A stretch of DNA of 64,000 nt from Melghirimyces profundicolus (GTDB taxonomy: Bacteria > Bacillota > Bacilli > Thermoactinomycetales > DSM-45169): the NCBI RefSeq assembly GCF_003054245.1, contig NZ_QBKR01000007.1, positions 1-64,000 of the forward strand, written 5' to 3'. The notes beneath the pieces are model-generated. The model was not told where the DNA came from. It saw only the letters and a list, made by a program, of their open reading frames with translations, and made no database searches. Both the position numbers and the translations under genes were made by a program. Positions 35,797 to 37,812 of this stretch are shown here, piece by piece. Every line of letters starts with the position of its first letter. Position 1 is the first letter of the stretch.

Positions 35797-36420
35797 ATGA
35801 ACAACAGACGATCCAACCGCGCTTCCCGTGCCAAAACCCAAGATGCCAAGCGCTGGGCATGGCTGAAAAACAAAATGGAGCAATTGGCGGATCGATTGCC
35901 GAAACAGCCGCCGTTCCCCCCCGAGCCTGAACAATTCCGGGATCCGGAACCGATGCGACCACGGGAGGGGACCCGCGGACGTCAAAATCCAGAATGGCGG
36001 GACGAATTTGAAGCTCCCGATTGGGACGCCCCCTTCGGCCCGCCTCCCCAGATGGATGAGCGGTCTCCGAGAGGACCGGAGGAGAAAGGAACCCGCGAAG
36101 AACGCGGCGCCCGTCCGGAAGATTGGTGGGACGGTCCGCCGATGATGGACTGGGGAGGTCCACCGGAAGAAGAAATTCCTCCGTGGGCCCGTTCACCCCG
36201 AAACCGGGAGAATACCAAAAACGATCATGATCGTTCGTTTCGTCGCAACACCGAGGAAGCCCCCTGGGAAAATCGGAGTGAAAGGGAAGGCCGTTCGGAC
36301 AGACAGGAGGTTCAACAACGGGAATGGGAAGAGCTTCCCTCCATGTTCGATGAGACGGACACCGTAAAAAGTTCCGGTTTCTCCCGGCGGAAGCGCTCGG
36401 GAAGAAGGAAAAGGCGGTAA
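35797..36420 (+). CDS. Low-complexity Pro/Arg/Glu-rich protein, possible spore coat protein
   Basis: 207 residues dominated by Pro, Arg, Glu, Asp, Asn and Trp, with runs such as PPFPPEPEQFRDPEPMRP and a C-terminal SRRKRSGRRKRR. No hydrophobic segment or signal peptide; it should be disordered. ATG follows GAAAGGAGG. The composition and the sigma-K-like promoter suggest a spore coat or cortex-associated protein, but no family is recognised. A strong terminator follows. Confidence 0.65.
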   Translation: MNNRRSNRASRAKTQDAKRWAWLKNKMEQLADRLPKQPPFPPEPEQFRDPEPMRPREGTRGRQNPEWRDEFEAPDWDAPFGPPPQMDERSPRGPEEKGTREERGARPEDWWDGPPMMDWGGPPEEEIPPWARSPRNRENTKNDHDRSFRRNTEEAPWENRSEREGRSDRQEVQQREWEELPSMFDETDTVKSSGFSRRKRSGRRKRR

Positions 36421-36444
36421 AAAAACCAAATTTTAGAAAATGGA

Positions 36445-36477
36445 TCCTGCGGATTGATTCCCGCAGGTTTTATTTTT
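36445..36477 (+). terminator. Terminator after the Pro/Arg-rich protein gene
   Basis: CCTGCGG pairs with CCGCAGG around an eight-base loop, followed by TTTTATTTTTT. Confidence 0.85.
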
Positions 36478-36484
36478 TAAACCT

Positions 36485-36645
36485 AAAAAAGACCCGTGGA
36501 AGGATCCACGGGTCCATGGGATCCGCCAAGAGCGGATCCTGAATGGGAGAGGAGAAACCGGAGGAAGAGCTTATGGGGAAACGTAAGTCTTCTCCGCGGT
36601 TTGACAGCATCTCCCGACGCCGTCATTCCTATCTTTGCCGTTTCA
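36485..36645 (-). ncRNA. Candidate small RNA opposite the rsmD upstream region
   Basis: A minus-strand unit of about 160 nt has a promoter candidate (-10 at 36652-36657), internal stems (GCGGATCC/GGATCCGC and GGAGAAGACTTA with its partner near 36570-36600), C-rich stretches such as TCTCCTCTCCC, and a perfect terminator: GACCCGTGGA/TCCACGGGTC (36491-36514) followed by TTTTTT. No protein of plausible length is encoded. The position upstream of rsmD (ylbH) recalls the ylbH leader RNA of Bacillus, which would run on the plus strand; the strand choice here is from the terminator and is inference. Confidence 0.45.
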
Positions 36646-36651
36646 GGGGAG

Positions 36652-36681
36652 ATTATACATCCCGGCGGATTTTTTTTGGAA
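36652..36681 (-). promoter_or_regulatory. Promoter candidate of the minus-strand RNA
   Basis: Minus strand TTCCAA, 18-bp spacer, TATAAT. Confidence 0.45.
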
Positions 36682-36710
36682 CGCTTTCATTTCCATGTGT
36701 CTTCTCTTTG

Positions 36711-36720
36711 TGGTAGGATA
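36711..36720 (+). promoter_or_regulatory. Extended -10 promoter candidate of rsmD-coaD
   Basis: TGGTAGGAT shortly upstream of rsmD, divergent from the minus-strand promoter; the -35 is poor. Confidence 0.4.
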
Positions 36721-36754
36721 AAAAATGTTTAGCAACCGAACGGCAGGTGTCGAT

Positions 36755-37812
<1,058 letters not shown>

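Follow-up and report, generated by a model that had tools for sequence, protein, structure and literature searches.

The window, that is, the whole 64,000-nucleotide stretch of DNA analysed here, contains two neighbouring open reading frames (ORFs) that we take to be rsmD (ylbH) and coaD, and, upstream of and divergent from the former, a minus-strand element that is almost certainly csfG, encoding an orthologue of the sporulation small RNA (sRNA) CsfG (Table 1). The gene on the other side of csfG, an ORF of 207 amino acids at 35797-36420, has no Pfam match. The same neighbourhood recurs in relatives, and csfG, identified by the Rfam family RF00516 ('ylbH leader'), is found in 53 of 61 genomes of a sample of kin, the genome of the window included. 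An earlier note, written from the sequence, had proposed an sRNA on this strand at the site of the ylbH leader of Bacillus. The site is correct, since RF00516 matches the plus strand with 85.7 bits (E 1.5e-16; gathering score 50), and so is the strand: an sRNA opposite the 'ylbH leader' is the published CsfG, detected on the reverse strand by northern blot in Bacillus subtilis (PMC3574147). The proposal is a correct rediscovery; the family is known, and CsfG of the window is a known RNA newly assigned in another genome. The reading given here corrects plain Rfam annotation, which would put a 'ylbH leader' on the opposite, incorrect strand.

Table 1. Features at and around csfG, in window coordinates.
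Feature	Position	Strand	Basis
RF00516 'ylbH leader' match	36483..36599	+	same DNA as CsfG, on the strand as filed by Rfam
CsfG sRNA, about 139 nt	36485..36623	-	RF00516 read in reverse, promoter, terminator, published B. subtilis northern
-35 element GTATA of sigma-F/sigma-G type promoter	36654..36658	-	conserved in orthologues, shuffle controls
-10 element GGCAAAGATA, after a spacer of 14 nt	36630..36639	-	conserved in orthologues, shuffle controls
5' hairpin with 8 pairs and a GGGA loop, not covered by the Rfam model	36604..36623	-	fold; stem counts in orthologues
Second hairpin, CCCC in loop region, 3' arm also C-rich	36555..36602	-	fold and RF00516 pairing
Deeply conserved core (CCCCAUAAGCUCUUCCUCCGGUUUCUCCUCUCCCA at 36578-36544)	36542..36581	-	model R1 (52.5 bits), alignment A2, phylum search
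Unpaired C-rich linker UCUCCUCUCCCAUUC	36540..36554	-	fold
Third hairpin	36519..36539	-	fold
Intrinsic terminator, stem 36515-36490 (11 pairs, 7 G-C), then T run	36485..36515	-	terminator search
Terminator-like site following the upstream gene and lying back to back with that of CsfG	36446..36476	+	
rsmD (ylbH) ORF, divergent neighbour of csfG	36725..37336	+	tblastn query for synteny
coaD ORF, next after rsmD	37333-37812		

Two sets of loci served for comparison. The first consists of 53 orthologues, that is, 56 RF00516 loci less three weak ones that lack the core (L002, L055 and L056). The second comes from an exact scan of the genome collection with 23 nt of the core, which returned at least 117 loci, 86 in records named as Bacilli and 31 in records with other titles; core identity among these loci is given by construction. 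By its sequence the csfG promoter is of the sigma-F/sigma-G (forespore) type, GTATA-N14-GGCAAAGATA, and its GG fits sigma-F. The -35 reads GTATA in 48 orthologues, GAATA in four and GTATG in one, with a spacer of 14 nt in 34, 15 nt in 18 and 16 nt in one. On a score with a maximum of 11, built on what we take to be the detailed B. subtilis consensus, all 53 orthologues reach at least 10, compared with 0.156 of dinucleotide shuffles, and 50 reach the full 11, compared with 0.008. Among the loci listed from the core scan, a score of at least 10 is found in 83 of 83 named Bacilli (shuffles 0.14) and in 28 of 30 records with other titles (shuffles 0.10), and the full score in 72 of 83 and 17 of 30, respectively (shuffles 0.008 or less); loci with too little sequence before the end of their contig or locus were left unscored—three of the 86 named Bacilli for the promoter and one for the terminator, and one of the 31 others for each.

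The minus-strand promoter of the earlier note stands as a conserved forespore-type element; a housekeeping promoter is not supported, and a consensus scan of 36000-37200 for sigma-70-type promoters on both strands found none (shuffle mean 0.3). That note names no boxes, and the TATAAT at 36652-36657 is the likely basis of its promoter; it is exact in only three of the 53 orthologues, the TTGACA matches 16-18 nt upstream of it reach at most four of six positions, and it is better read as the forespore-type -35. Placing the 5' end about 7 nt past the conserved -10 (near 36623, within 3 nt), and the 3' end at the T run of the terminator, gives a transcript of about 139 nt in place of the roughly 160 nt claimed. 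Further upstream, on the minus strand at 36677-36689, lies TGAAAGCGTTCCA, present also in a genome of the same genus and resembling a catabolite control (cre) site. CsfG is reported to increase after glucose exhaustion (PMC8216469).

The minus-strand RNA (36623-36485) has a predicted folding energy of -62.5 kcal/mol, with z = -5.31 against dinucleotide shuffles, and forms four hairpins; the stable stems, the C-rich single-stranded stretches (here UCUCCUCUCCCAUUC) and the terminator described in the earlier note are all borne out by this fold and by the terminator search. The plus strand of the same region folds slightly better (-67.0, z = -5.89), as does the plus strand of the whole transcript in 38 of the 53 orthologues; folding stability thus says nothing on strand, and as a strand test it was set aside as indecisive. 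When as many as three stems are added up, the preference for G-U over A-C pairs is also weak (143 vs. 107). In the 5' hairpin, a stem of at least six pairs occurs in 44 of the 53 orthologues, compared with 0.22 of mononucleotide shuffles, and on the minus strand the stem is longer with G-U than with A-C pairs in 36, shorter in eight and equal in nine (sign test 2.5e-5, an optimistic p-value given that the sequences are related). A minus-strand terminator follows the core in 46 of the 53 orthologues (0.019 of shuffles) and, among the loci listed, in 65 of 85 named Bacilli and 21 of 30 others (shuffles 0.016-0.030). Terminator-like sites on the plus strand, counted anywhere in a 263-nt stretch, occur in 20 of 53 orthologues and may belong to the upstream gene.

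The Rfam filing proposes instead a plus-strand 5' leader (an orphan riboswitch) of ylbH/rsmD; its fit to the window, the slightly better plus-strand fold and the listing of the ylbH motif among cis-regulatory elements in Bacillus methanolicus RNA-seq (PMC4342826) would all agree with a leader, although by our reading that listing follows the Rfam filing. We regard this leader as very improbable. The B. subtilis northern gave a strong signal for the reverse strand and none for the plus strand, and its authors equate the RNA with CsfG (PMC3574147); in Bacillus amyloliquefaciens dRNA-seq the leader went undetected, for which the authors suggest low expression (PMC4634765). Promoter and terminator are conserved on the minus strand, the 5' hairpin prefers G-U pairs there, and the 31 loci in records with titles other than Bacilli lack the Rfam 5' arm, yet mostly retain promoter, core and minus-strand terminator. 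An RNA-Seq table for Bacillus licheniformis places CsfG at ylbG/ylbH with its start greater than its end (PMC3871023), which we read as the reverse strand. Given the northern together with the promoter, terminator and 5' hairpin on the minus strand, we take the strand as settled. That the RNA might act as a cis-antisense to rsmD is suggested by its divergent position beside this gene in most loci; this is quite improbable, as the RNA falls short of the rsmD ORF and two copies lie elsewhere (L218, with promoter and terminator, and L228, a weak one). A small protein encoded on the plus strand (ATGGGAGAGGAGAAACCGGAG...) would have an ATG at the right place in the window and in 78 of 170 copies, with TTG or GTG in 22 more; however, 70 of the 170 have none of these starts (58 AAG, 10 CTG, two other) and L060 has a one-base length difference just downstream, which makes a protein vanishingly improbable.

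CsfG presence follows sporulation in the class. In 299 class genomes, RF00516 (E <= 0.001) was found in 183 and the sporulation protein family SpoIVA (TIGR02836) in 209, with weak SpoIVA matches in two genomes (G043 and G304) counted as absent; 182 genomes have both, 27 SpoIVA only, one the RNA only and 89 neither (Fisher p 2.5e-50). The RNA is thus present in 182 of 209 spoIVA-positive genomes, compared with one of 90 spoIVA-negative ones, and in that one (G245) the core model R1, built from 43 sequences over 42 positions, finds no core. When 150 candidates per genome were scored with R1 in the 27 SpoIVA-only genomes, two had the core and 25 did not; 18 of these 25 form a single family, f8 (e.g., G066, G112 and G231), which has SpoIVA and neither an RF00516 nor an R1 match, possibly through a lineage-wide loss of csfG. 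CsfG is reported to be under sigma-F and sigma-G control and expressed in the forespore, a dependence known for B. subtilis only (PMC8216469). CsfG is also possibly induced by oxidative stress (PMC4409812), and YlbG, encoded next to it, has been suggested to take part in its activity (PMC3814617).

The 31 loci from records with titles other than Bacilli extend this distribution. By record title, ten belong to Clostridia-type groups, 19 are given only as Bacillota or Firmicutes, and two are named Acetobacteraceae and Desulfovibrio, both probably mis-binned in view of the rsmD, coaD and ylbJ relatives on their contigs. Among the 31 are Fuchsiella alkaliacetigena (Halanaerobiales), Dethiobacter, Syntrophomonadaceae, Peptococcaceae and Thermoanaerobacterales. 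With recG, rsmD, coaD and ylbJ of the window as tblastn queries, 26 of the loci show a relative of one or more of the four, and the other five (L073, L117, L124, L131 and L153) show none; two of the five, L124 and L153, end near the core. The 5' arm of the Rfam hairpin, CCGCGGAGAAGACUUAC, is found with up to two mismatches in 51 of the 53 relatives and in 74 of 85 named Bacilli among the loci listed; in the 31 others it is found in none at up to five mismatches (best six of 17). When 32 genomes or records, including two virus contigs, were searched with RF00516, none exceeded its cut-off, the best score being 38.9 bits.

For a phylum search with R1, which recovers diverged cores as well, 249 genomes were sampled evenly across the phylum to which G342 belongs; 118 of them have the core, and the sample overlaps in part with the Bacilli of the earlier one. 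Alignment A2, used for the core, is A1 without the misplaced L054 and 12 further similar rows. SpoIVA is present in 211 of the 249 (E <= 0.001; 206 over the family cut-off), and 116 genomes have both, 95 SpoIVA only, two the core only and 36 neither (Fisher p 1.8e-9); in the 95, CsfG is either absent or too diverged for R1. Of 50 phylum loci examined (the best 30 and 20 others, mostly lower-scoring, a few of them shared with the 31), all except L218, L227 and L228 have recG, rsmD or coaD nearby. L218 (1150-1400; G447:C147), a second csfG-like copy, is not beside rsmD; it has a GTATA-type promoter of its own and is provided with a terminator-like stem.

We consider CsfG a probable ancestral endospore RNA of the Bacillota. 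In this reading, a compact form, with forespore promoter, C-rich core and terminator and without the Rfam 5' arm, lies at recG/rsmD/coaD in Clostridia-type groups and Halanaerobiales and scores under the Rfam cut-off, its core kept for about as long as sporulation itself and pointing to an equally old partner, and some phages appear to integrate at csfG. Both the core and its position next to rsmD appear to predate the divergence between Bacilli and several Clostridia-type lineages, so that an old partner, either mRNAs or an RNA-binding protein, is to be expected. The compact copies suggest a minimal CsfG of promoter, core of about 35 nt and terminator, whose RNA would measure roughly 80-135 nt by our estimate, and conservation in distant spore formers makes the partner testable by cross-species comparison. 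To our knowledge, few trans-acting sRNAs keep both sequence and gene neighbourhood across a phylum. Compact relatives go unmentioned in the extracts of the CsfG literature that we found, and this deep branch may be new. The CsfG study of Marchais et al. in 2011 reportedly has 'endospore formers' in its title, which may cover part of the branch, and we leave priority unclaimed.

Compared with CsfG (S547) of B. subtilis, the RNA of the window shares the ylbH/rsmD locus, the strand, the C-rich regions and the forespore-type promoter; nothing essential differs, although the stem sequences do, and the length of about 139 nt compares with a B. subtilis peak of 136 nt (PMC3574147). C-rich regions, described for CsfG in two reports (PMC8216469, PMC4409812), lie in unpaired parts of RoxS/RsaE and FsrA as well, and shared action modes and overlapping targets have been proposed for the three (PMC8216469, PMC4409812); RoxS/RsaE and FsrA, however, are under other regulators (ResDE and Fur; PMC8216469). 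The RsaE likeness that the earlier note wished to see checked in Rfam did not hold at the level of family: RsaE/RoxS is not among the 13 Rfam matches at E <= 10 in 36400-36760, which leaves a likeness of style, in the C-rich regions. Matches on the minus strand to anti-hemB (28.0 bits), Betaproteobacteria toxic sRNA (22.8), ar14 (21.8) and sX13 (20.8) fall under the gathering scores (49.5, 50, 58.8 and 50, respectively); these proteobacterial families share with CsfG a CUUCUCCUC-like motif and a terminator, a likeness that is compositional and probably convergent.

The C-rich core resembles an anti-Shine-Dalgarno sequence and would pair with purine-rich ribosome binding sites of mRNAs, lowering the translation or stability of the mRNAs bound, the same mode that has been proposed for the C-rich sRNAs RoxS and FsrA. 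Trans-action by pairing with Shine-Dalgarno sequences, as the earlier note proposed, is likely, and we lean, with some reserve, towards the fuller reading in which pairing at ribosome binding sites lowers translation or stability. One report counts CsfG among mRNA-regulating factors, in an introduction citing earlier work (PMC12456014); according to two others, its mRNA targets have yet to be identified (PMC8216469, PMC9147052). In 12 genomes, a search for 15 nt complementary to the core, with two mismatches allowed, gave 295 hits, csfG itself included, compared with 228 for the reversed control, a small excess. In 20 places examined among the hits listed, where the same 15-mer recurred or carried a single mismatch, no ribosome binding site was common to different species; a candidate just before an ATG (L272) was dropped, since its counterpart in another genome (L273) is not so placed.

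This lack of a target in the complementarity search would also suit a different role for the same RNA, in which it titrates an RNA-binding protein (Hfq or another) without pairing to mRNA. Hfq co-immunoprecipitates CsfG in B. subtilis, and the CsfG level falls modestly without hfq (PMC3574147); furthermore, the core is conserved over more than 20 nt, beyond what ordinary seed pairing would need, which makes a protein partner a serious alternative. Against it stand the complementarity of the core to Shine-Dalgarno-like purine stretches and the fact that the similar sRNA RoxS pairs through its C-rich regions (PMC4409812), and we hold titration to be unlikely, if worth keeping in view, with pairing to ribosome binding sites as the preferred reading.

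A 30-bit RF00516 match considered as a second csfG (L002:1501-1617; G000:C19:8625-8741) is without the core, R1 finding one place in G000, and is probably due to chance; the ORF downstream of it is presumably an M6-type protease. The core is absent from the RF00516 matches at L055 and L056 as well. A single match came from 72,556 plasmid records (Bacillus velezensis, 806,695 bases), and none from 50,697 phage records. Two IMG/VR virus contigs (L175:112-1489 and L174:5939-6479) carry a csfG-like core and terminator-like stem about 100 nt downstream of an integrase gene (PF00589) on the same strand, with a DUF7192 gene beside the core in both. The arrangement resembles an attachment site of a phage, with the 3' half of csfG contained in it; phages use tRNA genes as attachment sites in a like manner.
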